A stretch of 64,000 nt of DNA from Halosegnis marinus (GCF_029338355.1 NZ_CP119802.1:2170001-2234000), one strand, 5' to 3'. Positions 40,923 to 62,683 are shown, numbered from the stretch's first letter. The notes: generated by a model from the letters alone, not told the origin. Numbers and translations: made by a program.

Positions 40923-40931
40923 ATAACAATA
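40923..40931 (+). promoter_or_regulatory. ATAACAAAG-type promoter element (40956 gene)
   Basis: ATAACAATA, whose first base is 33 nt before the ATG at 40956. First member of the recurring ATAACAAAG-type element of this half of the window. Confidence 0.65.
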
Positions 40932-40955
40932 CCTCGGGGCCGAGACGCGGCCGGT

Positions 40956-41255
40956 ATGTCCCGCTCGCCCGAGGAGTGTACGGCCGTCGAGCCGCTGCCG
41001 CCGACCGTCGCCGCGGTGCTCGACGACCGCCCGGAGCGGCGGCGCGCGTACGTGTGCCTGCTCGGGACGCTCCGCGAGAACGGGGGACGGTGTTCCGCGG
41101 CGGCGCTGGCCGCGGCCCTCGCCCGGGCGGACGACGGCGCGGCCCGTCGGTCGGCGTACCTCGCCGTCCGCCGGGAGTACGTCCCGACGCTCGCGGCGCT
41201 CGGCGTCGTCTCCTACGACGGCGAGGACGGTACCGTGACGCTGCGCGCGGAATGA
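40956..41255 (+). CDS. DUF7344-like winged-helix protein
   Basis: 99 residues. RPERRRAYVCLLGTLRENGG begins the winged helix; AAALARADDGAARRSAYLAVRREYVPTLAALGVVSYDGEDGTVTL gives the recognition helix and wing, with the RRSAYLAVRREYVPTL pattern of the DUF7344 family. Unlike the two related proteins at 42970 and 51218 it has no membrane segments. Probably a DNA-binding regulator. Leaderless by TATA spacing. Confidence 0.8.
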   Translation: MSRSPEECTAVEPLPPTVAAVLDDRPERRRAYVCLLGTLRENGGRCSAAALAAALARADDGAARRSAYLAVRREYVPTLAALGVVSYDGEDGTVTLRAE

Positions 41256-41256
41256 G

Positions 41257-41445
41257 TTACTGCATCTCGTCGAGGCCGACGAACGACTCGCCGGCCGCCG
41301 TTATCCACACCGTCATCCGTTCGTCCTCGTCGGTCGTGCGGACCGGGTAGAGCGTACACTCGTCCGGGCCGCCGTCGTGTCGCTCTATCGCGGCGAGCAC
41401 GGTCCCGTCCCCGTGTCGGCCGTCGTCGTTCGCGTCGGTGCGCAT
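41257..41445 (-). CDS. small DUF7511-like protein
   Basis: 62 residues. The C-terminal part DGGPDECTLYPVRTTDEDER then MTVWITAAGESFVGLDEMQ matches the short DUF7511 pattern of haloarchaea (CTLYP ... WI/V-A ... FV-L). The N-terminus is disordered and acidic. Unknown function. Converges with the winged-helix gene, stops one base apart. Confidence 0.75.
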   Translation of the reverse strand: MRTDANDDGRHGDGTVLAAIERHDGGPDECTLYPVRTTDEDERMTVWITAAGESFVGLDEMQ

Positions 41446-41483: not shown

Positions 41484-41492
41484 ATTTGTTAT
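41484..41492 (-). promoter_or_regulatory. ATAACAAAG-type promoter element (minus strand)
   Basis: ATAACAAAT on the minus strand, first base 47 nt before the DUF7511-like start, so a short leader (about 14 nt) is implied. Confidence 0.55.
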
Positions 41493-41521
41493 GTCGCGGC
41501 TACCCGACCGGCGGCGCGCGC

Positions 41522-41668: not shown

Positions 41669-41830
41669 TCATACCACCTCGTGGGCGTCCGCCTGTCGTC
41701 GCGCGCCCCCGTGGTCGTTCGGCTTGGAGCGCGATGCGATTTAAGTAGGGCGCGCCGGGCCGCCCGGCCGCGCCGACCCGCTCGCGGGCGGCGCTTCCCG
41801 GTAACGCGGGGTTGTGCGGCGTGGCCGGTC

Positions 41831-41840
41831 TATAACTATA
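41831..41840 (+). promoter_or_regulatory. TATA element before the Bat-type HTH gene
   Basis: TATAACTATA, beginning 38 nt before the GTG at 41869. It shares TATAAC with the ATAACAAAG group but lacks the AAAG end. Confidence 0.55.
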
Positions 41841-41868: not shown

Positions 41869-42510
41869 GTGGTCTCGACCATCGATTCGACCGTGACCGT
41901 GCCGCCGGACGCGTTCGTGCTCTCCCGCTCGCTCTCCGGGCGGCCGGGGGTGCGCGTCGCGTTCGAGCGGGAGGTACCGCTGTCGCCGGCCGCGAGCACC
42001 TACGCCCGCGTCTCGAACGCCGACCGCGACTGGGTGGAACGACGCCTCCCCGGGGAGGACGGGGTCGCCGGGGTGGACGTCCTCGACGCCGACGCCGACG
42101 ACCGGCTGGTCCGCATCGCGTGGGACTCGCCCGTCGCCCCGCGGCCGGCCGGCCTGCCGCCGACGGACGCCACCTGCCTCGACGCCGTCGGGACCGACGA
42201 CGGCTGGCGGCTCGCGCTCCGCTTTCCGGACCGCGACGCGCTCGCCGACTGGTACCGGCGCTGTGGCGACCGCGGCATCGACGTCGACGTGCGCCGGCTC
42301 CGCGAGGACGGGGGAACGGCGACCCCCGACGGGCGGCTGACCGACCGCCAGCGGACGGCCCTCGCGACGGCGCTCGACGCGGGCTACTTCGAGGTGCCGC
42401 GCGGGGTGACGCTCGGCGAACTCGCCGCCCGGCTCGGGGTCTCCGACACCGCCGCCTCACAGCGGCTCCGCAGGGGTGTCTCCACGCTCGTCGAGGGGCA
42501 CCTCGGCTGA
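41869..42510 (+). CDS. Bat-type helix-turn-helix regulator
   Basis: 213 residues. The N-terminal domain (about 1-145) is of the type found in bacterio-opsin-activator proteins (FVLSRSLSGRPGVRVAFERE). The C-terminal HTH_10 domain (about 152-213) has LTDRQRTALATALDAGYFEVPRGVTL and LAARLGVSDTAASQRLRRG, a very typical end for Bat-like haloarchaeal regulators. GTG start at 41869 is supported by the TATA spacing. Target unknown. Confidence 0.9.
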   Translation: MVSTIDSTVTVPPDAFVLSRSLSGRPGVRVAFEREVPLSPAASTYARVSNADRDWVERRLPGEDGVAGVDVLDADADDRLVRIAWDSPVAPRPAGLPPTDATCLDAVGTDDGWRLALRFPDRDALADWYRRCGDRGIDVDVRRLREDGGTATPDGRLTDRQRTALATALDAGYFEVPRGVTLGELAARLGVSDTAASQRLRRGVSTLVEGHLG

Positions 42511-43788: not shown

Positions 43789-45602
<1,814 letters not shown>

Positions 45603-45603
<1 letters not shown>

Positions 45604-45710
45604 CAGTTCGCCCCTCCCCCGTGCGGGCCGCGGTCGCCCCTCGTGTGGCCGGGCCGCTCGTGTTCGTCGCTCGGTGCCCCCTCGTCGTGTCGTCTCTCGG
45701 TGACAGTCAT
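45603..45710 (-). CDS. short ORF coupled to glmS, 35 aa
   Basis: 35 codons, MTVTERRHDEGAPSDEHERP then GHTRGDRGPHGGGAN, with TGATG overlap of its stop and the glmS ATG. Hydrophilic, low-complexity, no known family. It may be a leader peptide for translational coupling rather than a functional protein; chance is possible in such GC-rich DNA. Confidence 0.4.
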
Positions 45711-45775
45711 CGTTGTTCCGTGCGGGACCCCGCCGCGGGGCGCTCCCGGACGGCGATTCCGTCGGCAGCGCCCGG

Positions 45776-45784
45776 CTTTGTTAT
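45776..45784 (-). promoter_or_regulatory. ATAACAAAG promoter element upstream of glmS
   Basis: Exact ATAACAAAG on the minus strand with GCCGGG following. Its first base is 74 nt before the short-ORF start and about 180 nt before glmS, so a leader of about 40 nt before the short ORF is implied. This gives glmS its own promoter despite the co-directional genes upstream. Confidence 0.6.
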
Positions 45785-45844
45785 ACTCGGGTTGCCGCTG
45801 TGACAGTTGTTGCCTAGCACGCGTAGGCGGTCCATACACCCCGG

Positions 45845-47209
45845 TCATCGCCGCTCCCCCCGGCCGACCGTGTACACCTCGCCCTCGACCGCCGCGGGGT
45901 CGACCGCGTCGCGCCCGTCCACGACCACGAGGTCGCCGAGCGCGCCCCAGTCGATACCCTCGAACTCCGGGTGGGCCGTGACCAGCACGGCCGCGTCCAC
46001 GTCGAGCTCGGGGAGGTCGGCGAGCGCGACCGCCTCGGCCGGGAACGCCGAGAGGTCGTCCAACACCGGGTCGGCGAGATAGAGGGTCGCGCCGTCGTCG
46101 GCCAGCGCCCGGGTCACGGGCATCGCGGGCGACTTGCGCGTCTCCGCGACGCCCGCGCGGTAGGCCGCGCCGAGGACGAGCACCCGCGCGTCGTGTATCG
46201 AGGTCCCCCGGTCCGCGAGCCGGTCGGTCAGCTCCCGCACCGCGAACAGCGGCATCCCGTCGTTGACCGCGCGCGCGGTCCGGGTCAGCGGCGCGTCCCG
46301 CCCGAACTCCGACAGCAGGAAGTACGGGTAGTAGGGGATACAGTGCCCCCCGACGCCGATGCCCGGGTCGTGGATGGCACAGAACGGCTGGGTGTTCGCG
46401 GTGTCGATGGCCGCGCGCACGTCCGCGCCGAGGTCGTCCGCGAACCGCGCCAGTTCGTTCGCCAGCGCGATGTTCACGTCGCGGTAGATGCCCTCGAACA
46501 CCTTCACGCACTCCGCGGTCGTCGCGTCCGCGACGGCCACCACCTCGTTCGTGGTGACGTGTTCGTACACCAGCCGCGCGGCGCGCGTACTCTCCGCATC
46601 GACGCCGCCGACGACCTTCGGGTACGCGCCGCCGATGTCGCGCAGCGCGCGCCCGCTCGACGTGCGCTCGGGGCAGAAGGCCAGCCCGTACTCCCCGGCC
46701 GAGAGCCCGCTCCCGCGTTCGAGCAGCGGCGCGACGGTGTCCGCACAGGTGCGCGGCGGCACCGTCGATTCGACGACCACGAGGTCGCCGGGCGACAGCC
46801 CCGCGGCCACGGTGTCCACGACGCTCCGCAGCGCCGAGAGGTCGGCCAGCCCGTCGTCGTCCACCGTCGTCGGCACGATGACGACGTGGACGCGCGCGTC
46901 CGCGGCGGCCGCCTCCCCGTCGGTCGTCGCCGAGAGCGCGCCCGTCGCGACGGTGTCCGCGACGAGGTGGCCGAGCCCCGGCTCCCGGCCGACGGGCGCG
47001 TCCCCGTCGTTCACCGCGGCGACGCGGTCCGGGTCGATATCGACGCCCGTCGCGTTCCCGGTGACCGACGCGAAGACGGCCGCCAGCGGCAGGCCCATCT
47101 TCCCGAGGCCGTACACCGCGACCGGGACCGCGCCCTCCACGAACTGCTGGCGGCGGACGGCCGCGGGAATCCCGTCGCCGTAGACGCTCGCCGTCGTCGC
47201 GCGGCTCAC
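45845..47209 (-). CDS. nucleotide-sugar 6-dehydrogenase (WbpA/WecC type)
   Basis: 454 residues. Rossmann motif VAVYGLGKMGLPLAAVF (about 30-46), the sugar-binding middle helix with ECVKVFEGIYRDVNIALANELA (about 234-255) and the catalytic Cys290 in GIGVGGHCIPYYP. This oxidises C6 of a UDP-GlcNAc- or UDP-ManNAc-type sugar to a uronic acid in two NAD+ steps; the ADATTAECVKVFEG type resembles UDP-HexNAc rather than UDP-glucose enzymes. GTG start at 47209 overlaps the Gfo/Idh stop by four bases. Confidence 0.92.
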   Translation of the reverse strand: MSRATTASVYGDGIPAAVRRQQFVEGAVPVAVYGLGKMGLPLAAVFASVTGNATGVDIDPDRVAAVNDGDAPVGREPGLGHLVADTVATGALSATTDGEAAAADARVHVVIVPTTVDDDGLADLSALRSVVDTVAAGLSPGDLVVVESTVPPRTCADTVAPLLERGSGLSAGEYGLAFCPERTSSGRALRDIGGAYPKVVGGVDAESTRAARLVYEHVTTNEVVAVADATTAECVKVFEGIYRDVNIALANELARFADDLGADVRAAIDTANTQPFCAIHDPGIGVGGHCIPYYPYFLLSEFGRDAPLTRTARAVNDGMPLFAVRELTDRLADRGTSIHDARVLVLGAAYRAGVAETRKSPAMPVTRALADDGATLYLADPVLDDLSAFPAEAVALADLPELDVDAAVLVTAHPEFEGIDWGALGDLVVVDGRDAVDPAAVEGEVYTVGRGERR

Positions 47210-48177
47210 GGCAGCGTCACCTCCGCGTCGGGCGCGGCCACCGCGTCCAGTATCTCCTCGGCGACGGCGAGCGCGCGCAGGCCGTCGCGCCCGCTCACGA
47301 CGGGGTCGCCCCCGGTGCGGACGGCCTCGGCGAACGCCGACAGCTCCGCGCGCAGCGGCTCGCCGTTCTCGACGGTCGGGTGTTCGGTGATGGACTCGTG
47401 GCGGTAGCGCACGTCGCCGTTGTTGACGATGTACTCCGGCAGCGAGTGGCGGTGTATCTCGACGGACTGGTCGCCGTAGTCGACGTTCACCTGACACTGC
47501 CGCGCGGTGAGCGACAGCGCCCGGACCTTCTCCTGGGTGACGCGGCTCGCGGTGAGCGTCGCCACGACGCCGCTCTCGAAGGTGAGCACCGCGGTCGCGT
47601 ACTGGCCGTCGTCCGTGCCCGACGCCTCGACGCGTTCGAGCGGGCCGTCCACGAGCGACAGCAACACGTCGATGTCGTGGATCATCAGGTCGAGGACGAC
47701 CCCGTCGTCCACCCGCCGGTCGAGGGGCGGGCCGAGCCGGTCGGCCGTCACCGCCACGAGGTCGAGGTCGGGGACGATGTCGGCGAGCGCGACGACGGCG
47801 GGGTTGAACCGCTCGACGTGGCCCACCTGCAACACGAGTCCCTCCCGGTCGGCGCGCTCGACGAGCGCCTCCCCGGTCGCCGCGTCCTCGACGAACGGCT
47901 TCTCGACGAGGAGGTGCGTCCCTGCGTCCATCGCGGCGTCGGCCACCTCGGCGTGGTAGGGGGTCGGCACCGCGACGGAGACGGCATCGACCTCGGCGAG
48001 CAGCGCGTCGCGGTCGTACGCGACGGTGTCGTACTCCTCGGCGACGCGGGCGGCGCGCTCCGCGTCCGCGTCCGCGACCCCGACGAGCCGCGTGTCGGGC
48101 AGTTCCCGGTAGAGGCGCGCGTGGTGGCGACCCATCGTGCCGACCCCGACGACGCCCGTCCGGACCGGCTCACTCAT
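47206..48177 (-). CDS. Gfo/Idh/MocA-family oxidoreductase (WbpB-like)
   Basis: 323 residues. N-terminal Rossmann fold GVVGVGTMGRHHARLYRELP, the EKP motif in HLLVEKPFVEDAATGEAL near residue 95 and the C-terminal alpha/beta domain with DLMIHDIDVLLSLVDGP, in which the conserved D-I-x-x-x substrate His is visible. In the Wbp route WbpB oxidises C3 of the uronate to give a 3-keto sugar. Its start overlaps the aminotransferase stop by eight bases, so the row is co-translated. Confidence 0.9.
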   Translation of the reverse strand: MSEPVRTGVVGVGTMGRHHARLYRELPDTRLVGVADADAERAARVAEEYDTVAYDRDALLAEVDAVSVAVPTPYHAEVADAAMDAGTHLLVEKPFVEDAATGEALVERADREGLVLQVGHVERFNPAVVALADIVPDLDLVAVTADRLGPPLDRRVDDGVVLDLMIHDIDVLLSLVDGPLERVEASGTDDGQYATAVLTFESGVVATLTASRVTQEKVRALSLTARQCQVNVDYGDQSVEIHRHSLPEYIVNNGDVRYRHESITEHPTVENGEPLRAELSAFAEAVRTGGDPVVSGRDGLRALAVAEEILDAVAAPDAEVTLP

Positions 48178-49282
48178 CGGCGACCACCTCCCGCACCGCG
48201 GCGACGACGCGGTCGATGTCGGTCCCCGAGAGCCGCGGGTGGACCGGGAGCGACAGCACCTCCTCGGCCGCGCGCTCGGCGTTCGGGTACGAGCCGTCCC
48301 AGCCGTCGTAGGCCGGCTGCCGGTGGACCGGCGTCGGGTAGTAGACGCCCGTGTCGATGCCGCGCGCGTCGAGCGCCTCGCGCAGGGCGTCGCGGTCGTC
48401 CGTCCGCACCGTGTACTGGTGGTACGCGTGGCGCCGGCCCGTCCGGACCGGCGGGAGGGTGAGCGGGGTGTCCGCGAGCGCGGCCGTGAGCGCGGCGGCG
48501 TGTTCCCGCCGCGCCTGGACGAACCGCGGGAGCCGGTCGAGCTGTGCCCGGCCGAGCGCCGCGGCCACGTCGGTCATCCGGAAGTTGTGGCCCACCTCGA
48601 CGTGTTCGTAGCTCGACCCGCCCGTCGCCCGGCCGTGGTTGCGGAAGCGGCGCGCGCGCTCGGCCACGTCGTCGCGGTCGGTGACGACCATACCCCCCTC
48701 CCCCGTCGTCATGTTCTTCGTCGGGTAGAAGGAGAAACAGCCGGCGTCGCCCACAGTGCCGGCCGGTTTCCCCCCGACGCCCGCGCCGTGCGCCTGTGCG
48801 GCGTCCTCGACGAGCGCGAGGTCGTGGTCGTCGGCGATGTCGGCGAAGCGGTCCGTTCGGGCGGGGAGCCCGTAGAGGTGGACGACGAGCAGCGCGTCGG
48901 CGTCGTGTTCGCGGACGGCCCGCTCGGCGGCGTCCGGGTCGAGGTTCAGCGTGCGCTCGTCCACGTCGGCGAACACGGGGGTCGCGCCGCACAGGCGGAC
49001 GGCGTTGGCCGTGGCGACGAAGGTGAACGGCGTCGTCACGACCGTGTCGCCCGGCCCGATGCCGAGCGCGTGGAGCGCGACGTGCAGCGCCGCGGTCCCG
49101 TTCGACACCGCGACGGCGTGGTCGACGCCGTGGGTCGCGGCGAAGGTGGACTCGAACGCCTCGACCTCCTCGCCGGCCGCGAGCGACCCGCTCGCGAGCA
49201 CCCGTTCGACGTTCTCGCGCGCGCGCTCCCCGACGTCCGGGGCGGCGATGGGGACGCGCGGCCGCTCCTCGCTGCGGCTCAC
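48170..49282 (-). CDS. DegT/DnrJ/EryC1/StrS sugar aminotransferase (WbpE-like)
   Basis: 370 residues, fold-type [50 protein letters not shown] with Asp160 and [15 protein letters not shown] with the PLP Lys189, then [19 protein letters not shown]. WbpE transfers an amino group from glutamate to the 3-keto uronate. The GTG start at 49282 overlaps the acetyltransferase stop by four bases. Confidence 0.93.
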
Positions 49283-49884
49283 GCGTCGTTCCCCCCGTCG
49301 AGTTCCGGCGGCAGCGGCTCGTGGCGCGCGGGCGCCCCGACCGCGAGCGTCCGCGCGGGCACGTCCTCGGTCACGACCGCGCCCGCGGCGACGAACGCTC
49401 CCTCCCCGACGGTGACGCCGGGCAGAACCGTCGCGTTGGCCCCGACCGAGACGTCGTCGGCGAGCGTCGGCCCCGCCAGTTCGGTCTCGCGGCGCAACGG
49501 GTACGGGTCGTTCGTCAGGGTCGCCGACGGGCCGACGAACACGTCGTCGCCGACCGTCGTCTCCCGCGGGAGGTACACCCCCGTCTGGAGGCTGACGCGC
49601 GACCCGAGCGTCGTCGCGCCGTCGATGACGGCGTTCGTCCCGACGAGCACCTCGTCGCCGGCGCGCGTCCCCTCGCGAATCAGGGCGTTGTGCCCCGTCG
49701 CGAAGTCGTCGCCGACGACCACGTCGCCGTAGACGACCGTCCCCGAGCGCACCGTCGCGCGCTGGCCGAACACCGGCGGGTCCCGTCCCTCGCCGGCCTC
49801 GACGACTACGTCGGGCGCGAGCGTGCAGTCGCGTCCGTGCTGTACCGTCCGTGCCGCGTCGCCGCGGTGGGTTGATGGCTCCAC
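49279..49884 (-). CDS. left-handed beta-helix N-acetyltransferase (WbpD-like)
   Basis: 201 residues. Repeated hexapeptide turns from about residue 40 to 180 ([60 protein letters not shown]) give a trimeric left-handed helix with the catalytic-type His in [12 protein letters not shown]. In the Wbp route WbpD adds the 3-N-acetyl group from acetyl-CoA. It is the first gene of the row of five; GTG start at 49884. Confidence 0.9.
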
Positions 49885-49911
49885 GTTGGGCGCGGCTACC
49901 CGGTATCCGGG

Positions 49912-49920
49912 CTTTGTTAT
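49912..49920 (-). promoter_or_regulatory. ATAACAAAG promoter element of the wbp-like row
   Basis: Exact ATAACAAAG on the minus strand, its first base 36 nt before the GTG at 49884. The transcript would be leaderless or have a very short leader. Confidence 0.65.
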
Positions 49921-49971
49921 GCAGAGCTTTGTGACCGTATGCCATGGCAGGATTCGGCCGACAGCGTCCGC

Positions 49972-52939: not shown

Positions 52940-53542
52940 ATGTGGCCGTGGGGCCACGTCGCGTTCGCGTACGTCTGCTACTCGCTCGGGAGTCGCGCGC
53001 TCGTCCGCGAGCCGCCCGCCGGTCGCGAGGCGCTCGTCGTCGCCGTCGCCGCGCTCGGCCCCGACCTCCTCGACAAGCCGCTGTCGTGGGGGCTCGGCGT
53101 CTTCCCGACGGGGAACGCGCTCGGCCACTCGGCGTTCGTCGCCCTGCCCGCGGGCCTCGCCGTGCTCGCGCTCGGGCAGCGATACGGTCGCCGGCGGGAG
53201 GCGGCCGCGGCCGTCGTCGGCTACTGGACGCACCTCGTCGGGGACGTGGGGTTCGGCGCGCTCGTCTCGGGCGACCTCGACCTCGGGGCGGTGCTGTGGC
53301 CGCTCGTCGCCCGCGAGCCGTACGCGACCGACGAGGGATTGGTCGGGCGCACGCTCCGGTATCTCCGCGAGTTCGCGGCCGACGCGGCCGACGGCGAGTT
53401 CGCCGCCGGGGTCCTCCTCGTCGCCTACGTCGCCCCGAGCGCCGTCGCGCTCGCGCTGTGGCTCCTCGACGGCCGGCCCGGCCCGGGGACGCTCCGCCGG
53501 CTGGTCGCCCGGCTCCGCCGCACCGCGGCCGGGACGGCCTGA
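52940..53542 (+). CDS. YdjM/DUF457-type membrane-bound metal-dependent hydrolase
   Basis: 200 residues. WGHVAFAYVCYSLGSRA, AALGPDLLDKPLSW, NALGHSAFVALPAGLAVL and VVGYWTHLVGDVGFG contain the family's His/Asp set (His6, Asp in GPDLLDK, His in GHS, His/Asp in THLVGD) within four hydrophobic segments. The LexA-binding-inner-membrane hydrolase family (YdjM) is similar. Its substrate is unknown; it is often near surface-glycan genes in haloarchaea. Confidence 0.85.
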   Translation: MWPWGHVAFAYVCYSLGSRALVREPPAGREALVVAVAALGPDLLDKPLSWGLGVFPTGNALGHSAFVALPAGLAVLALGQRYGRRREAAAAVVGYWTHLVGDVGFGALVSGDLDLGAVLWPLVAREPYATDEGLVGRTLRYLREFAADAADGEFAAGVLLVAYVAPSAVALALWLLDGRPGPGTLRRLVARLRRTAAGTA

Positions 53543-53554
53543 GGTATCCGACGT

Positions 53555-53563
53555 ATAACCAAG
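53555..53563 (+). promoter_or_regulatory. ATAACAAAG-type element (53588 gene)
   Basis: ATAACCAAG, first base 33 nt before the ATG at 53588, so leaderless. Confidence 0.65.
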
Positions 53564-53587
53564 CGGGCGAGCGGCGACCCCGCGAGC

Positions 53588-54349
53588 ATGGCTACTGACG
53601 GTGTCGGCGCCATCGCCGACCGACCCGCGGCGTTCACCCTCGACGAGTACGGGGCGCTGCTCGACGCGCTGTGCGACCGCGACCGCGAGTTCGTCGGCTA
53701 CGACGACCCGCTCGACGAGGGGAGCGTCCTCCTGCGCCACGACGTGGACTTCTCGCCGCGGCGCGCGCTCGACTGTGCCCGTATCGAGGCCGACCGCGGC
53801 GTGCGCGCGACGTACTTCTTCCTCGTCTCCTGTCCGCTGTACAACCTCGCCTTCCGGCCGAACCGCGACCTGCTCGTCCGGCTCCGCGCGCTCGGCCACG
53901 ACGTCGGCCTCCACTTCAGCACCCACCAGTACTGGAACGACGACCCCGGCGACGACGCCATCGAGGAGCGCGTCGCCGCCGAGCGCGACGTGCTGGCGGC
54001 GCTCGGGGCCGATCCCGTCGACGCCGTCTCGTTCCACCGGCCGCCCGAGTGGGTGTTCGAGCGCCGCTTCGACGGCTTCGACAGCACCTACGAGCCGCGC
54101 TTCTTCCGCGAGGTGGCCTACCGGAGCGACTCGAACATGCGCTGGCGCGCGGAGCCGCCCTTCGCCGACGGGGTTCCCGACCGGCTCCAGCTGCTCGTCC
54201 ACCCCGGGCTGTGGGGGCCCGAGGACGCCGACTTCGCCGAGCGCGTCCGGACCGAGGTGAACCACGAGCTGTCGCGCACCGCCCGGTACATGACCGAGAC
54301 GCTCGTCGACAAGCGGTACCACGCCGTCGAGTTCGGCCACGGCGGGTAA
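53588..54349 (+). CDS. polysaccharide-deacetylase-like (NodB fold) protein A
   Basis: 253 residues. GSVLLRHDVDFSPRRALDCA holds the NodB HD metal pair, GVRATYFFLVSCPLYNLAF the next strand, and GHDVGLHFSTHQYW the H-x3-H metal-binding motif (HFSTH). SFHRPPEWVF is the R-P motif. It probably removes acetyl groups from a sugar or from a lipid-linked intermediate; no signal peptide is visible, so it may act in the cytoplasm. Substrate unknown. Confidence 0.88.
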   Translation: MATDGVGAIADRPAAFTLDEYGALLDALCDRDREFVGYDDPLDEGSVLLRHDVDFSPRRALDCARIEADRGVRATYFFLVSCPLYNLAFRPNRDLLVRLRALGHDVGLHFSTHQYWNDDPGDDAIEERVAAERDVLAALGADPVDAVSFHRPPEWVFERRFDGFDSTYEPRFFREVAYRSDSNMRWRAEPPFADGVPDRLQLLVHPGLWGPEDADFAERVRTEVNHELSRTARYMTETLVDKRYHAVEFGHGG

Positions 54350-54397
54350 TCTCGCCGTTCGCCGACACAAGCTCGGCTTTCCGACGCGGCTCGGTCA

Positions 54398-54406
54398 ATA
54401 ACAATC
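54398..54406 (+). promoter_or_regulatory. ATAACAAAG-type element (54432 gene)
   Basis: ATAACAATC, first base 34 nt before the GTG at 54432; supports that start. Confidence 0.65.
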
Positions 54407-54431
54407 AGGCCGCCCCGCGGTGTAAGGTCCC

Positions 54432-55874
54432 GTGAGCGACCCCACGCGGACCGACCTCCGTCGGCGCGAGCTGCTGGCGACCCTGACCGCGGCCGGCGGC
54501 GCCGGCGCGCTGGCCGGCTGCTCGCTGTTCGAGTCGGCGCCGGCGCCGACGGACACGCCCGACGCCGGGACCGACACCCCCGCCGAGACGACGCCGAGCG
54601 ACGCCGCCGACACCGCCGAGATACCGTACGCCGACGAGTACGGGACGGTGGTGGACCTCGCGCGGGCGGGCGCGGACACGACCGGCCGGGAGAGCGTCGT
54701 CCCCCTCCTCGACGAGCACGCCGGCGACGACACGCTCCTCTACCTCCCCGAGGGGACCTACCTCGTGGACGAGCCCTGGCAGCTCGACGGGTTCGCGGAC
54801 GTGGCCGTCGTCGGCCCCGACGCCGTCGTCGTCCCGCCGAGCCGCTACGCGGGCACCCTCTTCGCCGTCACCGACGGCTCGGGCTTCCGCTTCGAGGGCG
54901 TCACCTTCGACTTCACCGCCGAGGGGACCGGCGCGCGCCCCATCGGCGCGCTCGTGGACGACGGGCTCGTCGTCCGGGACGTCACCGTCCGCGGCAGCCA
55001 GGACGTCGACCAGGACATGATGCGCTTCGACGTGACGGGCGAGGAGGGCACCGGGCTGGTCGAGCGGCTCCGCCTGCGCGACGGCGCGTCGTTCGACATC
55101 CCCGTCACCGGCTGTCTCGTCACCGGCGACAGCGTCGGCGAACTGACCTTCCGCGACTGTGAGATCGTCGGCTTCCCCGACAACGGGCTGTACGCCTCCG
55201 CAGCGACCGGCCGCGTGCGCGTCGAGGGGGGCTACTACGCGAACAACGCCATCTCGAACGTGCGCGTCGGCGACGGCGCGGTCGTCAGCGGCGTTCACGT
55301 CCGCGTCGACTACGAGGAGGACGTCCTGGAGAACACCCGGGGCATCCGGCTGCGCGAGGGCAGCGGCGTCCTCGTCGAGAACGCCACGATAGAGATGCTG
55401 AACGTCCCCGTCAGCGACGGCGCGCTCACCGTCTCCACCGGCGCGCGCGAGGTGACGGTGCGCGACACCGAGATCCGCGTCGACGCGGACGACGTGACCG
55501 GCCTGCTCGCGAAGAGTCCCGCCGACCGCTTCGAGGGAGAATCGACGGCCGTCACGGTCGAGAACGTCGTCGTCACCGGCGGCGCCGCCGGCAACGACGC
55601 CATCGACATCGTCGACCGCGACGGCTGCCGGCTCACCGGGCTGTGTATCCACCAGACCGGCGACGCCCGCGACGGGGTGCGGCTGCTCCGCTCGCGGGAC
55701 AACCGCATCGAGGACGCGACCATCGTCGTCACCGGCGAGGCGCTCGTGTTGGAGGACTCCACGGCGAGCACGACCGGCATCCGAACGGCCGCCGAATCCG
55801 GGGACTCGGCGGGCCTCTCCGCGCAGGACGGAACGGTCCCGCAGGGGCCGTGTGCGACCGACGAAGACCCATGA
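54432..55874 (+). CDS. Tat-exported lipoprotein with right-handed beta-helix
   Basis: 480 residues. DLRRRELLATLTAAGGAGAL then AGCS: a twin-arginine signal with a lipobox (LAGC), so folded export and lipid anchoring. A Thr/Asp/Pro-rich spacer follows to about 60, then a parallel beta-helix (RFEGVTFDFTAEGTG, LTFRDCEIVGFPDNGLYASA, VRVEGGYYANNAISNVRVGD, VLVENATIEMLNVPVSDGAL). This is the pectate-lyase/epimerase-like fold that works on uronic-acid polymers. No catalytic residues can be assigned. It overlaps a 27-aa ORF (ATGA) and then the ATP-grasp gene. Confidence 0.88.
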   Translation: MSDPTRTDLRRRELLATLTAAGGAGALAGCSLFESAPAPTDTPDAGTDTPAETTPSDAADTAEIPYADEYGTVVDLARAGADTTGRESVVPLLDEHAGDDTLLYLPEGTYLVDEPWQLDGFADVAVVGPDAVVVPPSRYAGTLFAVTDGSGFRFEGVTFDFTAEGTGARPIGALVDDGLVVRDVTVRGSQDVDQDMMRFDVTGEEGTGLVERLRLRDGASFDIPVTGCLVTGDSVGELTFRDCEIVGFPDNGLYASAATGRVRVEGGYYANNAISNVRVGDGAVVSGVHVRVDYEEDVLENTRGIRLREGSGVLVENATIEMLNVPVSDGALTVSTGAREVTVRDTEIRVDADDVTGLLAKSPADRFEGESTAVTVENVVVTGGAAGNDAIDIVDRDGCRLTGLCIHQTGDARDGVRLLRSRDNRIEDATIVVTGEALVLEDSTASTTGIRTAAESGDSAGLSAQDGTVPQGPCATDEDP

Positions 55875-55954
55875 CAACCCCTACCCACTCCACGACGGCA
55901 CCGCGCGGGAACCGACCGACGACTCGCTCCGCCCCGCGGGGTGAGACGCCGTGA
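55871..55954 (+). CDS. 27-aa bridge ORF between beta-helix and ATP-grasp genes
   Basis: MTTPTHSTTAPRGNRPTTRS then APRGETP. Its ATG overlaps the upstream stop (ATGA) and its stop overlaps the next start (GTGA), filling the gap exactly. Overlap at both ends favours a translated bridge. No family known. Confidence 0.5.
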   Translation: MTTPTHSTTAPRGNRPTTRSAPRGETP

Positions 55955-57135
55955 GCGACGACCCCGGCACCGTCGTCGTGACGACGGGGCACACGGCCTG
56001 TCTGCCCTGCCTGCGCTCGCTCGGCTCGCGGGGCATCCGAACCGTCGTGGCGGGCGACGACGCGCGCACCCCGGAGTTCGCCTCGCGCTTCTGTGACGAG
56101 CGGGTCGTCACCCCGCCCCACGACGGCGACCTGCTCGCCTACCGGGACGCGCTCCTCGGGCTGGCCGCGCGCCCCGATGTGCGGACGCTCGTGCCCACGC
56201 GCGAGGAGGACGCCTACCTGCTGGCGCGCTACCCCGACCTGTTCGACCGCTACATCGACACCGTCTCGCCCCCCTCGGCGGTGCTCGGCCGGGTCCACGA
56301 CCGGCTCCGGTTGGCCCGCGCGGCCGAGCGCGCCGGCGTCCCGGTGCCGGAGACGCGGCCGCTCGGCGAGGTGGACGACTGGAGCGAGCCGCTGGTCGTG
56401 AAGTCGCGGTACAACCTCCTCGCGGACGCGTATCTCCCGGACCTAGACGAGCGCTCCGCCTCGCAGGTGAAGTCGGTGCTCCACCTCGAACCGGACACGC
56501 CGCCCGACCTCGACGGGCTGTGTCGGACCTACGGCCACGAGCCGGTGGCCCAGGAGTTCGTCCCGACCACCGAGGAGTACATGGTCGCGGCGCTGTACGA
56601 CCACGGCGAACCGCTGGCGACGTACCAACACCGACAGCTCCGCGGGAACACGTATCTGGGCGGCGGCGGCGTCTACCGCCGCTCCGCGTACGTCCCGCAG
56701 CTCGACTCCGTCGCGCGCCGGCTGCTCGACGAACTCGACTACCACGGGCTGGCGTGTATCGAGTACATGCGCCGCCCGGAGACGGGGGAGTTCCTGCTGA
56801 CGGAGATCAACCCCCGGATGTGGCAGTCGCTCCCCTCCACGGTGCGGGCGGGCGCGGACTTCCCGTACTACTACTGGCTGGCGGCCACCGGCCGCGCGAG
56901 CGAGGTCGAGTGCGACTACGACATCGGCGTGTCGAGCCACCTGCTGAAGGGGGAGCTGTCGCACCTGCTCAGCGTCCGGCGCGAGCGCTCGGCGTACATG
57001 GCGCGGCCGAGCTTCCTCCGGCGCGCGGCCGAGATCGGCGTCTCCTGCGTGCGCGACCCGCACTTCGATTACCTCCGCGCGGACGACCCGGGGCCGTTCG
57101 TCCGGACGGTCGCGAACTACTTGCGTCGGAGCTGA
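55951..57135 (+). CDS. ATP-grasp ligase
   Basis: 394 residues. Pre-ATP-grasp domain (VVVTTGHTACLPCLRSLGSR, a PurT/carbamoyl-phosphate-type N-terminus), ATP-grasp core (PLVVKSRYNLLADAY near 142-156, VAQEFVPTTEEYMVAAL, HGLACIEYMRRPETGEFLLT, EINPRMWQSLPSTV with the Mg2+-binding E/N pair), and a C-terminal part DFPYYYWLAATGRASE. Such carboxylate-amine ligases make amide or peptide-like bonds. In this locus it may join an amino acid to a uronic acid or activate one; substrate unknown. GTG start at 55951. Confidence 0.88.
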   Translation: MSDDPGTVVVTTGHTACLPCLRSLGSRGIRTVVAGDDARTPEFASRFCDERVVTPPHDGDLLAYRDALLGLAARPDVRTLVPTREEDAYLLARYPDLFDRYIDTVSPPSAVLGRVHDRLRLARAAERAGVPVPETRPLGEVDDWSEPLVVKSRYNLLADAYLPDLDERSASQVKSVLHLEPDTPPDLDGLCRTYGHEPVAQEFVPTTEEYMVAALYDHGEPLATYQHRQLRGNTYLGGGGVYRRSAYVPQLDSVARRLLDELDYHGLACIEYMRRPETGEFLLTEINPRMWQSLPSTVRAGADFPYYYWLAATGRASEVECDYDIGVSSHLLKGELSHLLSVRRERSAYMARPSFLRRAAEIGVSCVRDPHFDYLRADDPGPFVRTVANYLRRS

Positions 57136-57290
57136 TTCGGCGCTAAGTCCCGCTTACCGGCGGTAGCGGCCTCTTACTTCCGTCTGGTAGCCAAGCGTAC
57201 GTATCCGCGTAGCATCCCGCGAGCAGTTGCGGTGTAGCTGGCGGCGAGGTCGTCATATCGCTTACGTCGGTAACCCCGTCCTACTCGGGC

Positions 57291-59327
57291 ATGGCAGATG
57301 GCCATGATCCGGATCCGGATCGTAAGCGAACGAATCTCACACGTAGGAACGTCCTAACCGCGGGTGCGGCCGCGGCGTCGGCGTTCGGTCTCGGCACGCT
57401 GGGCGCGGTCGGGCCCGCGAGCGCGGCGACGGAGGTGAACCTCGGGGACGAGGGGCTGTCGCCGGGCGACACCATCGACCCCTATCTGGACGAGTACTTC
57501 ACCGACGGCACCGTCGCAGTCGTGCCCGCCGGCGAGTACGAGTGGAACGGCGACGGCATCGGCGGGAACTTCGCCGACGCCGGCCTCGTCGGCGACGGCG
57601 AGGTCGTGCTCCGTCACGAGGACGGGATGCACCGCGCACCGACCACTCACGCGACGGGCGGCACCGTCCGCTTCGCCGACATCACCATCCGCGGCGAGTG
57701 CGACGGCGACGACAGCCGCTGGCGGCTCCAGGCCGACGAGGACGCCGACCTCGTCCTGGAGAACGTCGCGCTCCCCGACGGGATGGAGGGGCAGTTCGGC
57801 GACGCGACCGGCATCTACGTCCCGCCGTCGCACGCCGGTACCCTCACCCTCCGGAACGTCCACCTGGAGGACTTCTCGAACAACGGCCTCTACGCGAGCG
57901 CGCCGGGCAAGCCGTCGCAGGACGGCCAGCAGGGGGCGGTGTACGTCGAGGGCGGCCTCTACCGCAACAACAACGTCGCGGGCGTCCGGCTCGGCTCGAA
58001 CGGGAGCCACGCCATCGGCGTCACCATCGTCAACGACGCGCTCTCGACGGACATCGGCGACGAGGGGACCGCACAGCGCGGCCTCCGCATCCGCGAGCCC
58101 GGCGACGACATCCTCGTCGAGGACTGCGACATCTACCACTCCTTCTCGGACTCGGCCTCGCCGATACAGCTCCACCCCGGCGCGGAGGGCGGCACCGGCA
58201 CCATCCGGAACACGCGCGTCTACACCGAGACGGGCGCGTCGGCGGTGAGCTACGGGAGCGGCGTCCCCGACGGCTGGACCGTCGAGAGCCTCTCCATCAC
58301 CGGCGACGGCGACACGAGCTACCCCGACGGGTGGTCGAACGTCTGCGTCGGCGGGAGCTGTCCCGTCGCCGATCCCGAGCCGAGCGACTCCGAGACGACC
58401 TCGGGCGGCTCCGACGACGGTTCGACCGGGAGCGAGAACGACGGCGGCAGCGCGGAGGGTTCGGGCGACCTGTTCGTCGTCGAGGCGGCCGACGGCGGGC
58501 CGAAGTTCTCCTACGAGTTCGCCGGCACGGGCACCGTCACCCCCGTGCTGGACGGCTCCACGCTGGAGGCCGACGGCAACGACGACATCACGACGAAGGA
58601 GGACGGCACCTACGCCGTGGCGGGCGTCACGGGCAACGGCTACGGCGACTCCTTCCGCGTCGACGGCGACATCGACTCGTTCACCTCGACGACCGCGGCC
58701 GAGAACTACACGCTGCTGCTCGCGGGCGACGAGACGACCGCGGGCGAGCTGGTCGCGACGGACGCCGGTGACGAGCCGACGACCTCGCGGCTCGCCGTCG
58801 AGGCGGTCGAGAACGGCCCGCGCTTCGAGTACGAGTTCGTCGCGTCCGGCCCGGTCGCGCCCGTCGAGGACGCGGGCACGCTGAAGGCCGAGGGGAACGA
58901 CACGATCGTCGAGAACGACGACGGCACCTACACCGTCACCGGCGTCACGGGCAACGGCTACGGCGACTCCTTCGACGTGACCGGCGCGGTGACGGCCTTC
59001 TCCGCGACCGTCGCGGAGTCGAACTTCGTCCTCCGCGTGGACGACGAGCCGGTGAGCGTCGCGGAGCTCGTGGACGGCGGCGACCCCGAGCCGCTCCCGA
59101 ACAGCATCGTCTTCGACGGCGCGGGCAGCGCCGAAACGACGGCCTACGAGTTCGAGGTCACCGGCTCCGTGAGCGCCGGCGACAGCGTCGAGGCCGGCGA
59201 CGCCATCGAGGGCACGACCGTCTCGGGCGCCGTCACCGAGGGCGTCGACGCCTACCGGTTCTCCGGCGACGTGGCCTCCTTCAGCCTCGACGGCCCCGCG
59301 ACGGTCGCCATCGAGGACACCGACTGA
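57291..59327 (+). CDS. Tat-exported beta-helix protein with C-terminal repeat modules
   Basis: 678 residues. KRTNLTRRNVLTAGAAAASA is a Tat signal (RR-N-V-L), cleaved likely after ASA near 44. A beta-helix (about 45-360: DFSNNGLYASAPGKPSQDG, VEGGLYRNNNVAGVRLG) is related to that of 54432. A Ser/Gly/Asp linker (about 360-395) leads to two copies of a ~95-residue domain (GPKFSYEFAGTGTVTPV and GPRFEYEFVASGPVAPV; each with VTGNGYGDSF) and a third, diverged copy ending DGPATVAIEDTD. The repeats may be carbohydrate-binding or anchoring. No lipobox or PGF-CTERM. Confidence 0.85.
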   Translation: MADGHDPDPDRKRTNLTRRNVLTAGAAAASAFGLGTLGAVGPASAATEVNLGDEGLSPGDTIDPYLDEYFTDGTVAVVPAGEYEWNGDGIGGNFADAGLVGDGEVVLRHEDGMHRAPTTHATGGTVRFADITIRGECDGDDSRWRLQADEDADLVLENVALPDGMEGQFGDATGIYVPPSHAGTLTLRNVHLEDFSNNGLYASAPGKPSQDGQQGAVYVEGGLYRNNNVAGVRLGSNGSHAIGVTIVNDALSTDIGDEGTAQRGLRIREPGDDILVEDCDIYHSFSDSASPIQLHPGAEGGTGTIRNTRVYTETGASAVSYGSGVPDGWTVESLSITGDGDTSYPDGWSNVCVGGSCPVADPEPSDSETTSGGSDDGSTGSENDGGSAEGSGDLFVVEAADGGPKFSYEFAGTGTVTPVLDGSTLEADGNDDITTKEDGTYAVAGVTGNGYGDSFRVDGDIDSFTSTTAAENYTLLLAGDETTAGELVATDAGDEPTTSRLAVEAVENGPRFEYEFVASGPVAPVEDAGTLKAEGNDTIVENDDGTYTVTGVTGNGYGDSFDVTGAVTAFSATVAESNFVLRVDDEPVSVAELVDGGDPEPLPNSIVFDGAGSAETTAYEFEVTGSVSAGDSVEAGDAIEGTTVSGAVTEGVDAYRFSGDVASFSLDGPATVAIEDTD

Positions 59328-59360
59328 GCGCGGTCGGCCCGCGGTTCCGTCCCCACTCAT

Positions 59361-59402
59361 CCGTCCCCAAGCCCCCGTCCCCAAGCCCCCGTCCCCGAGC
59401 GC
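59361..59402. repeat. three tandem 14-bp units
   Basis: CCGTCCCCAAGCCC twice (59361-59374, 59375-59388), then CCGTCCCCGAGCGC (59389-59402), in a C-rich stretch between two genes. Likely slippage product; no function seen. Confidence 0.6.
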
Positions 59403-59532
59403 CCGGGCGCGTACCTATCCCCGTCCGCGCCCCCCGCTCCGCGACCCCCACACCCCCCCACCCTCACACGCGGTCCCCGCGCTTCGGCCCTTCACGCCCG
59501 GTAACCGCCGCTTTCCGCCCGACAAGCCCAGC

Positions 59533-59541
59533 ATAACGAAG
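59533..59541 (+). promoter_or_regulatory. ATAACAAAG-type element (DUF354 gene)
   Basis: ATAACGAAG, first base 33 nt before GTG 59566, so the GTG at 59566 is preferred to the one at 59554. Confidence 0.65.
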
Positions 59542-59565
59542 GGTCGTATCGGCGTGCGTCGGGTA

Positions 59566-60702
59566 GTGAGCACCGAGCGAACGCCGGACGGCGCGGAGGC
59601 CGAGCTGACCGTCGCGGTGACGGTCCAACACCCCGCGCACGTCCACTTCTACCGACACCCGATAGCCGAGCTCCGGCGCCGGGGGCACGCGGTCCACGTC
59701 TTCGCCCGCGAGAAGGACGTGACGACCGACCTGCTCGCGGCGTTCGACATCGACCACACCGTCCTCGCGCGCGAGCCGCGGTCGCGCGCCGACCTGCTGC
59801 GCGTGCAGGCGCGGTACGAACTCGGCCTGTTGCGCGCCTGCCGCCGGCTCGACCCCGACGTGTTGACCGCGGTCGGCGGCACCACCGCGGCCCACGTCGG
59901 GTGGCTGTTGGGCGCGCGCAGCGTCGTCTTCATCGACAGCGGCATCACGCCCTCGAACCGCGTGACGGTGCCGTTCGCCGACGAGGTGTGTAACCCCCGG
60001 CGGCTCGTCGCGGACTTCGGCGCGCGCCAGCGCCGCTACGACGGCTACCACGAACTCGCCTACCTCCACCCCGACCGCTTCGAGCCGGACCCCGAGCGCC
60101 TGCGCGCGCTCGGCGTCGAGCCCGACGACACCTACAGCGTCCTCCGGTTCGTCGCGTGGAACGCCCACCACGACGTGGGGAAGGCCGGGCTCTCGCCGGC
60201 CGGGAAGCGCCGCCTCGTCGAGGCGCTCGCCGAGCGCGGCGACGTGTACGTTACGACGGAGGGACCCCTCCCCGACGAGTTCGAGGACTACCGGCTCCCG
60301 GTGCCGCCCGAGGCGCTCCACGACCTGCTCGCGCACGCGGACCTCTACGTCGGCGACTCCCAGACCACGGCGACGGAGGCCGCCCTGCTGGGGACGCCCG
60401 CCATCCGGTCGAACTCCTACGCGGGCGACGGCGACATGTCGAACTTCGTCGAACTCGAGGACGAGTACGGCCTCCTGCGCTCGATTCCCGACGAGGACGA
60501 GGCGATAGCGACGGCCGCCGCGCTGCTCGACCGCCGGGACGCCCGCGCGGCGTGGGCACGCCGGCGCGACCGGCTGTTCGCCGAGAAGATAGACGTGACC
60601 GACTTCGTCGTCGAGCGGCTGACGGCGCCGACCGACCCCCCGACGCGGGGGACGCGGCTCGCCCGCCCGCTGGCCGCGCTCGCCGGACGGTGGTCGGGAT
60701 GA
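59566..60702 (+). CDS. DUF354 (GT-B-like) protein
   Basis: 378 residues from GTG 59566 (MSTERTPDGAEAELTVAVTV). VQHPAHVHFYRHPIAELRRR and AVHVFAREKDVTTDLLAAF form the N-terminal GT-B-like half; VVFIDSGITPSNRVTVPFAD, then HADLYVGDSQTTATEAALLG, PAIRSNSYAGDGDMSNFVEL and the C-terminal helices. DUF354 proteins are related to MurG/UDP-GlcNAc 2-epimerase folds and are common in archaeal polysaccharide loci. Its stop overlaps the epimerase start (ATGA). Confidence 0.87.
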   Translation: MSTERTPDGAEAELTVAVTVQHPAHVHFYRHPIAELRRRGHAVHVFAREKDVTTDLLAAFDIDHTVLAREPRSRADLLRVQARYELGLLRACRRLDPDVLTAVGGTTAAHVGWLLGARSVVFIDSGITPSNRVTVPFADEVCNPRRLVADFGARQRRYDGYHELAYLHPDRFEPDPERLRALGVEPDDTYSVLRFVAWNAHHDVGKAGLSPAGKRRLVEALAERGDVYVTTEGPLPDEFEDYRLPVPPEALHDLLAHADLYVGDSQTTATEAALLGTPAIRSNSYAGDGDMSNFVELEDEYGLLRSIPDEDEAIATAAALLDRRDARAAWARRRDRLFAEKIDVTDFVVERLTAPTDPPTRGTRLARPLAALAGRWSG

Positions 60703-61751
60703 AGGTGCTCTCCGTCGTCGGGACGCGCCCGCACTTCGTGAAGGCCGCGCCCGTCTCCCGCGCCCTCGACGGCGCCTGCGAGCACGTCCTGGTCCACACC
60801 GGCCAGCACTACGACGACGCGCTCTCCGAGCGGTTCTTCCGGGAACTGGACATCCCGCGGCCGGACCACGACCTCCGTGTCGGCTCGGCCGACCACGGCC
60901 CGCAGACCGCGATGATGCTGTCGAGCCTGTCGGCCGTGCTCCGCGCGGAGTCGCCCGACGTCGTCCTCGTGTACGGCGACACGAACTCGACGCTCGCGGG
61001 AGCGCTGGCGACGGCGAAGCTCCCGCCGACGCTCGCCCACGTCGAGGCCGGCGTGCGCTGTTTCAACCGCGACATCCCCGAGGAGGTGAACCGCGTGCTG
61101 ACGGACCACGCCTCGGACCTGCTGTTCGCGCCGACGGAGACGGCCGTGGACAACCTCGCCGCCGAGGGCGTCACCGCGGGCGTGACGAACACCGGCGACG
61201 TGCTGTACGACGCTCTGCTGTGGGCGCGCGACCGGCTCGACGCCGGCGTGCTCGACGAGTTCGGCGTCGTGCCGGGCGAGTACGTCCTCTCGACGGTCCA
61301 TCGCGCGCACAACACCGACGACCCCGAGCGGCTCGGCGCGATACTCCGGGCGTTCGGCTCGCTGGCGCTGCCCGTCGTCCTGCCAGCACACCCGCGCACC
61401 CGCGAGGCCGTCGCCGCCCACGGCCTCGACGTCCCCGCGAACGTGAAACTGGTCGAGCCGGTGAGCTACCTCGACTTCCTCGCGCTGCTCGACGGCGCGG
61501 CCCGGGTCGCCACCGACTCGGGCGGCGTGCGCAAGGAGGCGTTCTACCTCGACACGCCCTGCGTGACGCTGCGCGAGGAGACGGTGTGGCCGGAGACGGT
61601 CGCGGCCGGCTGGAACGAACTCGTCGGCACCGACGAGGGCGCCATCGTCCGGGCGCTGACGCGGGAGTGGGACCTCGGCGAGAAGCCCGCGCCCTACGGC
61701 GAGGGGGACGCGGCGCTCGCAATCAGGGAGGCGATACTCGGTGTCGAGTGA
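60699..61751 (+). CDS. wecB: UDP-N-acetylglucosamine 2-epimerase (WecB/WbpI-type)
   Basis: 350 residues, full GT-B-like fold. VVGTRPHFVKAAPVSRAL, TGQHYDDALSERFFREL, VYGDTNSTLAGALATAKL with the catalytic Asp94, AHVEAGVRCFNRDIPEEVNR with the two Glu, and DSGGVRKEAFYLDTPCVTLR, all signatures of non-hydrolysing 2-epimerases. It may act on UDP-GlcNAc (WecB) or on UDP-GlcNAc3NAcA (WbpI); the sequence alone does not decide. The start is fixed by a four-base ATGA overlap with the DUF354 gene. Confidence 0.94.
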   Translation: MKVLSVVGTRPHFVKAAPVSRALDGACEHVLVHTGQHYDDALSERFFRELDIPRPDHDLRVGSADHGPQTAMMLSSLSAVLRAESPDVVLVYGDTNSTLAGALATAKLPPTLAHVEAGVRCFNRDIPEEVNRVLTDHASDLLFAPTETAVDNLAAEGVTAGVTNTGDVLYDALLWARDRLDAGVLDEFGVVPGEYVLSTVHRAHNTDDPERLGAILRAFGSLALPVVLPAHPRTREAVAAHGLDVPANVKLVEPVSYLDFLALLDGAARVATDSGGVRKEAFYLDTPCVTLREETVWPETVAAGWNELVGTDEGAIVRALTREWDLGEKPAPYGEGDAALAIREAILGVE

Positions 61752-62667
61752 CCCGACCGAGGCGCCGTTCGCGCTGTGTCTCACCCACGACGTGGACCGG
61801 GTGCGCAAGTCGTACCAGTCGCTCTACTACGCGGTCCGCGACCGCGACCCCTCACACCTGCGCGGGCTGGTGCCGGGCCGGAACCCCTACTGGCAGTTCG
61901 ACCGCGTGATGGCGCTCGAACGCGACCTCGGGGTGCGCTCGGCGTTCTACTTCATGGACGAACAGCGGCTGTTCCGCGACCGGCCCCCGCGCGAGTGGCT
62001 CACGGTCGAGGGGTGGAAGCTGTACGCCGGCCGCTACAGCGTTGACGACCCGCGCGTGGCCGACGCGGTCCGCCGGCTGGCCGAGGGCGGCTGGGAGGTC
62101 GGCCTCCACGGCTCCTACGAGTCCTATCGCGACGGCGACCGCCTCGCCCGCGAGAAGGCGGCCGTCGAGGCCGTCCTCGGCGACGAAGTCCGCGGCGGCC
62201 GCCAGCACTACCTCAACCTCGACGCGCCCGCGACGTGGCGCCGGCAGGCCGACGCCGGCCTCCGCTACGATTCGAGCCTCGGGTCGAGCACGACCTACGG
62301 GTTCGAACACGGCTACGAGCCGCTGCGCCCGTTCGACGACGAGTTCGTCGTGTTCCCGCTGACGGCGATGGAGGCGGCGCTGCCCGACATCGCCGAGCGA
62401 CCCGCCGCCGCGTGGGCCGCCTGCGACGCCCTCCTCCGCGAGGCGTGCGACGAGGGCGCGGTGATGACTGTTCTGTGGCACCCCCGGACGTTCAGCGAGG
62501 CGGACTTCCCGAACCACGCCGACCTCTACCGCCGGCTGATAGAGCGAGCCCGGGAGCTGGGCGCGTGGGTCGGCCCGCCCGGCGAGTACTACGCCGCGAT
62601 GGACCATCCGGACCGGACCGAGGGGAAAACGGTGCCCGCGGCCGACCGGGCACCCTACGAGGGGTAG
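61741..62667 (+). CDS. polysaccharide-deacetylase-like protein B
   Basis: 308 residues. FALCLTHDVDRVRKSYQSLY gives the HDVD metal motif; SAFYFMDEQRLFRDRPPREW, GWEVGLHGSYESYRDGDRLA with the GLHGSY motif (H-x-S-Y in place of H-x3-H), and VMTVLWHPRTFSEADFPNH with the late His. It is longer than protein A and fits the subgroup common in glycan loci, some of which may lack deacetylase activity. GTG start overlaps the epimerase stop by 11 bases. Confidence 0.85.
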   Translation: MSSDPTEAPFALCLTHDVDRVRKSYQSLYYAVRDRDPSHLRGLVPGRNPYWQFDRVMALERDLGVRSAFYFMDEQRLFRDRPPREWLTVEGWKLYAGRYSVDDPRVADAVRRLAEGGWEVGLHGSYESYRDGDRLAREKAAVEAVLGDEVRGGRQHYLNLDAPATWRRQADAGLRYDSSLGSSTTYGFEHGYEPLRPFDDEFVVFPLTAMEAALPDIAERPAAAWAACDALLREACDEGAVMTVLWHPRTFSEADFPNHADLYRRLIERARELGAWVGPPGEYYAAMDHPDRTEGKTVPAADRAPYEG

Positions 62668-62674
62668 GTCGGGG

Positions 62675-62683
62675 ATAACAAAG
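62675..62683 (+). promoter_or_regulatory. ATAACAAAG promoter element (FemAB-like gene)
   Basis: Exact ATAACAAAG followed by CGGG, first base 37 nt before the ATG at 62712. Confidence 0.65.

Follow-up and report, generated by a model that had tools for sequence, protein, structure and literature searches.

How might the genes that build the surface of a haloarchaeon be switched on and off together? The surface glycans of haloarchaea vary, and they are important for the S-layer, biofilms and adaptation to the environment. The question is raised by the window, the whole stretch of 64,000 nucleotides of Halosegnis marinus DNA analysed here, in which a set of genes that, judged from their families, appear to build surface glycans occupies the right-hand part. 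The original prediction had noticed a recurring sequence in front of several of these genes, had taken it for the TATA box of leaderless transcripts, and had suggested that a special TBP/TFB pair or an activator could read it and so let the glycan genes be switched together. The genes concerned are:

43789 to 63716, continuing to about 73.8 kb, strand unassigned: surface-glycan genes, with GlmS (named by its own sequence and its orthologues, without a Pfam scan), UDP-sugar dehydrogenase, GFO/IDH oxidoreductase, DegT aminotransferase, hexapeptide transferase and DUF1616
43789 to 63716, strand unassigned: the remaining surface-glycan genes, with ATP-grasp, DUF354, UDP-GlcNAc 2-epimerase and FemAB-like proteins

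Past 63716, a flippase, a GT2 protein, an epimerase and a phosphodiesterase follow up to about 73.8 kb. Among the other proteins encoded in the locus are three DUF7344 proteins, an HTH_10/BAT regulator, a winged-helix (wHTH) protein of the HVO_A0261 type (A0261 hereafter), HalOD1 and DUF7511; winged-helix genes thus accompany the recurring sequence.

All eleven copies of that sequence reported earlier were found again, each in its place and on its strand, and two things could be added to them, namely a further copy at 41832 (ATAACTATA) and a GTA triplet at a fixed gap of 8 bp upstream. With at most one mismatch, ATAACAAAG has 8 matches in the 64-kb window vs 0.25 expected from dinucleotide shuffles. 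As had been claimed, the sequence is absent from the first 40 kb, which holds few ATAAC words and none that forms ATAACNAW, all 12 copies of which lie at or beyond position 40,923. In seven of the window's sites GTA stands exactly 8 bases upstream. The sites are:

40912 to 40931, plus strand: bipartite GTAGCCCCACG-ATAACAATA, 33 nt before the ATG (40956) of a short DUF7344-like wHTH gene
41484 to 41503, minus strand: bipartite GTAGCCGCGAC-ATAACAAAT, 47 nt before the ATG (41445, minus strand) of DUF7511
41821 to 41840 (core at 41832), plus strand: variant GTG-N8-ATAACTATA, 37 nt before the GTG (41869) of the HTH_10/BAT regulator
45776 to 45795, minus strand: variant GCA-N8-ATAACAAAG, 5' of a 35-codon ORF that is followed by GlmS (43789-45603), 181 nt to the gene
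49912 to 49931, minus strand: CAA-N8-ATAACAAAG, 36 nt before the GTG (49884, minus strand) of the hexapeptide transferase
50998 to 51017, minus strand: bipartite GTAGGACGGTC-ATAACAATG, 48 nt before DUF1616 (start 50958)
51111 to 51130, plus strand: bipartite GTACACCGAGA-ATAACAAAG, before a 19-codon ORF (51155) and a DUF7344 gene (51218)
52778 to 52797, plus strand: bipartite GTACCCGACGC-ATAACTAAT, 151 nt before a membrane protein (52940)
53544 to 53563, plus strand: bipartite GTATCCGACGT-ATAACCAAG, 33 nt before 53588, a weak polysaccharide-deacetylase match
54398 to 54406, plus strand: ATAACAATC lacking the GTA, 34 nt before the GTG (54432) of a beta-helix protein
59522 to 59541, plus strand: ACA-N8-ATAACGAAG, 33 nt before the GTG (59566) of DUF354, glycosyltransferase-like
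62664 to 62683, plus strand: bipartite GTAGGTCGGGG-ATAACAAAG, 37 nt before 62712, a FemAB-like GNAT protein

The CAA triplet or a similar one also precedes the hexapeptide transferase gene in relatives. Directly 5' of the genes at 55951, 57435 and 60690 there is no copy of the element. Three of the leaders downstream of the element contain a short ORF, namely 51155-51217 (19 codons) ahead of the DUF7344 gene, 52868-52942 (23 codons) ahead of the membrane-protein gene and 45603-45710 on the minus strand (35 codons) ahead of GlmS; two of the three overlap or abut the next start codon, and these ORFs could possibly encode leader peptides or serve translational coupling. The right edge of the locus has, at window coordinate 73834, a GTA-N8-GTAACTAAC that stands 34 nt before the GTG of a 42-codon Cys-rich ORF (CRRCGK...). 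About 1.4 kb to the left of the window, the gene of an HTH_63 regulator (L006:10599-11212) carries GTG-N8-ATAACAATA 38 nt before its ATG and is possibly a regulon member outside the glycan locus.

The shared upstream element is therefore a two-part one, GTA-N8-ATAACNAW, in which the GTA half lies exactly 8 bases 5' of ATAACNAW; it is present at 8 promoters of the locus, with variants at others. The gap is rigid: in our own locus and the relatives' loci pooled, 97 pairs were found at N8 vs 0-7 at each other gap of 0-25, a ratio that is inflated because some of these loci had been chosen for the composite pattern, the N8 spacing itself having first been read off the H. marinus genome. The same spacing is also present in loci picked via a neighbouring protein. 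A profile of 71 sites, defined as ATAACNAW with a start codon 31-38 nt downstream, shows at positions -11, -10, -9 and -8 a G in.66, a T in.66, an A in.96 and an A/G in.77 of the sites, followed by ATAAC and then by A (.72), A, A/T, G (.51) and C (.59). The 5' half reads GYA, with its A in 96% of the sites, and single changes are tolerated in the core (A to G at the first base, A to T at the third). The consensus can be written GYA-N8-(A/G)T(A/T)AC-N-A-(A/T). Written as RTAR and RTAAC, the halves are 11 bp, one helical turn, apart on the same face and look like a direct repeat, which fits better than an inverted repeat because position -9 is A in 96% of the 71 sites and never T; the inverted-repeat reading was rejected on this ground.

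Within the genome, the element is a property of this locus. ATAACNAW occurs 67 times in 2.81 Mb vs 30 times for the reversed control, and 16 of the 67 fall within C1:2,210,923-2,242,957 (window 40,923-72,957), a 32-kb glycan locus that makes up 1.1% of the genome (binomial p ~5e-17, for an interval picked after the data were seen). Because this cluster reaches window coordinate 72,957, the glycan locus extends about 9 kb beyond the window's right edge. The exact composite GTA-N8-ATAACNAW is restricted to the glycan locus, as all 8 of its genomic copies lie in these ~33 kb of 2.81 Mb and its reversed control has 0 matches genome-wide; the relaxed form GYA-N8-RTWACNAW has 15 matches, 10 of them in the locus, and its reversed control 9. 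The whole-genome search that the original prediction had called for pointed the same way, in that the ATAACNAW sites outside the locus that were inspected (about half) were mostly coding or without an upstream GTA, with 3-4 promoter-like.

The distance to start codons indicates what kind of site this is. The seven distances given earlier (33, 36, 33, 33, 34, 33 and 37 nt) proved correct, with the qualification that at 51122 the ATG at +33 opens the 19-codon ORF only, the DUF7344 start (51218) being at +96. Counted from the first A of ATAACNAW, ATG codons peak at +33 (20 vs a mean of 1.6 per position), and when only the ATG starts of long ORFs are used and no motif is preselected, the hexamer that ranks first at -33 in the loci examined is ATAACA (16 seen, 39-fold). 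The canonical haloarchaeal core promoter consists of a BRE (CGAAA), a TATA box (TTWT) and a -10 WW (PMC4983044), and 49 ordinary promoters of the same genome show an A-rich, BRE-like signal at -35 to -32 and a TTTW box at -29 to -26. With its start at +33, ATAACNAW covers -33 to -26, i.e., the BRE/TATA positions, and keeps the canonical spacing of leaderless genes, which makes it compatible with leaderless transcripts; in contrast to the canonical promoter, the element sites carry CNAW where the T-rich box (TTWT/TTTW) would lie at -29 to -26, ATAA instead of the A-rich BRE, and in addition a GTA half at -44 to -42, beyond the core promoter. It is plausible, from this arrangement, that ATAACNAW replaces the usual A-rich and TTTW boxes in a TATA-like core role. 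Since most Haloferax transcripts are leaderless (PMC4983044), the genes at +33 to +38 are likely to start leaderless as well, although the TSS positions and leaderless mRNAs at the element are what we infer from the sequence. The proposed TATA box of leaderless transcripts thus stands as far as the core-promoter position goes, but the element is more than a TATA variant, given its second, GYA half, and the four sites farther from genes (41492, 51006 and 45784 on the minus strand, at 47, 48 and 181 nt, and 52789, at 151 nt) would imply leaders and not leaderless genes.

Conservation extends this picture to the order Halobacteriales. In 116 genomes, GTA-N8-ATAACAAW has 426 matches vs 64 for the reversed control, with 86 genomes above the control and 6 below. 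Composite clusters occur in other genera and families (10/11 copies in 35 kb in genome G035, 7 in 39 kb in G019, 6 in 38 kb in G013 and 5 on one contig stretch in G021). The regions share their gene families, the order of which is shuffled, and Halosimplex, Halorarius, Halorubrum and Haloferax are among the carriers with a name. Among orthologues of the locus genes, ATAACNAW lies at -170 to +30 in 97 of 335 and at +60 to +260, the in-gene control, in 0 (p ~4e-33, related genomes not being independent). The sequence, position, rigid spacing and locus specificity of the element and its conservation before orthologous genes are established at this level, and the element very probably serves a surface-glycan regulon as its dedicated and conserved promoter. 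That common descent or base composition and not selection should account for it, the copies having spread by duplication with the gene cluster, is already disfavoured and hardly credible to us: the locus does look modular, with gene order shuffled between genomes, but only GTA, ATAAC, the A at +6 and the W at +7 are kept while the bases of the 8-bp gap and the flanks vary, the distance to start codons is fixed, and the controls are far lower in both the 116-genome and the orthologue counts.

Because the element is locus-specific and stands before glycan genes, joint control of these genes, as originally proposed, is the natural reading, and the surface-glycan genes are probably switched together by a dedicated regulator. 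The GTA half lies beyond the usual TBP/TFB contact, and a separate sequence-specific protein is therefore indicated. The most likely mechanism would be one in which the cluster itself encodes a winged-helix protein that reads the element and activates. In the model that we favour, with a probability of roughly 0.5, the glycan regulon has a bipartite promoter dedicated to it, which depends on an activator and is bound by such a protein, most likely DUF7344. The 3' half would occupy the BRE/TATA positions in place of the A-rich and TTTW boxes, and ordinary TBP/TFB would bind the ATAACNAW core poorly; the winged-helix protein, most likely the membrane-anchored DUF7344 protein (51218-51775), would bind both halves and recruit or stabilise TBP/TFB, so that the glycan genes are switched on together, and its membrane part could sense the cell surface. 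Activation rather than repression, the identity of the reader and co-expression are steps that we infer, as the half-sites alone do not separate an activator from a repressor. The candidates for the reader in the locus, listed with a second DUF7344 gene, are:

51218 to 51775, plus strand: DUF7344 gene, best candidate reader, with a predicted winged helix (residues 11-106) and two C-terminal, probable membrane helices
42970 to 43590, minus strand: second DUF7344 wHTH gene
51957 to 52262, plus strand: A0261 winged-helix gene, second candidate reader, 57-71% identical in many haloarchaeal loci
41869 to 42510, plus strand: HTH_10/BAT-family regulator, a local candidate only, inconsistent in relatives' loci

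DUF7344 is our first candidate, held tentatively and at somewhat less than even odds. It is found in most element-rich loci, including three without A0261 (G035, G016 and contig C4 of G038). One copy in G038 (L052, C4:156685), GTAAATGGTGAATAACAAAG, is followed 67 nt downstream by a DUF7344 gene; this 19-mer or a one-base variant is present in most of the f17 genomes listed, the downstream gene having been inspected in G038 only. The AF2 model of the protein (pLDDT 83) predicts the winged helix followed by two long C-terminal helices, which likely span the membrane, and its Foldseek/PDB matches are weak (none at E<=0.001) and include MarR-type, BigR, F93 and Csa3 winged helices. Because the family is large and paralogous (9 genes in this genome and 28-30 in G013 and G038), the presence of DUF7344 near the element is weak evidence. 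Four loci of other DUF7344 paralogues in this genome lack the relaxed element, and some loci with the element, which had been chosen for it, have neither DUF7344 nor A0261. General autoregulation of the regulators was rejected: the element lies upstream of 0/28 A0261, 1/25 DUF7344b and 3/27 DUF7344a orthologues, and with only 3/27 DUF7344 autoregulation is not general. At C1:740042 (minus strand; L096), GTA-N8-ATACCTATC stands in the divergent region beside a DUF7344 paralogue, 34 nt ahead of a 273-aa gene; it is perhaps the sister element of another DUF7344 protein, an observation too weak to use. A search of the literature accessible without subscription found no publication on DUF7344 or HVO_A0261.

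The reader could instead be the small soluble A0261 protein, acting as an activator or as a repressor overlapping the core promoter, a reading that we consider unlikely though worth keeping in view. Most element-bearing loci in families f1, f5, f6 and f12 have a single copy of it, its 57-71% identity between genera makes it the most conserved regulator of the locus, and in families f4 and f12 a strong match to it tends to go with the element and its absence with absence; the G026 locus has A0261 and three exact GTA-N8-ATAACAAAG within 5 kb, whereas the 4 DUF7344 copies of G026 lie outside this locus. However, A0261 has no match at E<=1e-10 in the element-rich G035, G038 and G028, the Actinarchaeum and YIM A00013 loci contain it with hardly any element, and the number of elements per 20 kb is lower in the A0261 loci that lack DUF7344 than in those that have it (2.1 vs 4.9, p ~0.01, confounded by lineage). 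More doubtful still is the original idea of a special TBP/TFB pair for which ATAACNAW would be an alternative TATA/BRE, so that no further regulator is needed. ATAACNAW does lie exactly at the BRE/TATA positions, the 16 TFIIB-repeat matches in the genome amount to about 7 TFB genes, and the bop promoter (TATA GTTACA, no BRE) prompted the same proposal (PMC2121645); yet the GTA half at -44, with its rigid gap and beyond the usual TFB contacts, is left unexplained, and paralogues of these factors would be expected to serve promoters genome-wide, whereas the exact elements are confined to one locus. One TFB (TFIIB) gene lies at window coordinate 78459-79406 on the minus strand (L004:14459-15406), 5.5 kb past the last exact element; as a local reader it was set aside, since this linkage is not conserved, a TFB being near the locus in only one of the relatives' loci scanned. 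Least likely among the candidate readers is the local HTH_10/BAT protein, supposed to act in the manner proposed for Bat at bop: it is encoded in the locus, its own promoter carries a variant of the element (41832, +37), and it has counterparts in the G019, G016, G008 and L088 loci, but it is missing from most element-bearing loci, so that it was rejected as a universal reader and is at most a species-specific add-on.

Of the systems described in the literature, those nearest to the glycan element are the bop promoter, the CsmR sites and the EarA promoters. In the Bat/Brz regulon of Halobacterium salinarum, the bop promoter has the non-canonical TATA box GTTACA, no BRE, and an upstream activator sequence common to co-regulated genes (PMC2121645, PMC3184054). 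The glycan element shares with it the non-canonical core box and an upstream sequence common to co-regulated promoters, but differs in sequence, in target genes, in its rigid 8-bp gap and in its spread across the order in glycan loci, and the linkage of HTH_10/Bat to the regulon is seen here without being general. The CsmR motif of Haloferax volcanii (TATCA-N4-TGATA) is a site beside BRE/TATA proposed to enhance TFB recruitment (PMC13286277). It is likewise a sequence-specific site near BRE/TATA; however, it is a semi-palindrome beside a canonical TATA with motility and cell-shape targets, whereas in the glycan element the core boxes are replaced and the site is non-palindromic. At the archaellum promoters of Methanococcus, the wHTH activator EarA acts from upstream and bypasses a weak BRE (as described in PMC13286277); its motif and lineage are unrelated to the glycan element, and the likeness to wHTH activation depends on the candidate reader proposed here.

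A wider version, which we put forward as a tentative and rather unlikely possibility, is that of an order-wide promoter class in which a rigid bipartite site takes the place of BRE/TATA and is read by membrane-anchored DUF7344. If true, one-component membrane regulators would control the haloarchaeal glycan coat via core-promoter recognition. In all, an easily scored, conserved element may define the glycan regulon from sequence in most of the haloarchaeal genomes sampled, and it gives the uncharacterised DUF7344 and HVO_A0261-type wHTH families a testable function. It also offers a simple case for the question of how promoters are chosen without canonical TATA/BRE in archaea that have many TBPs and TFBs.
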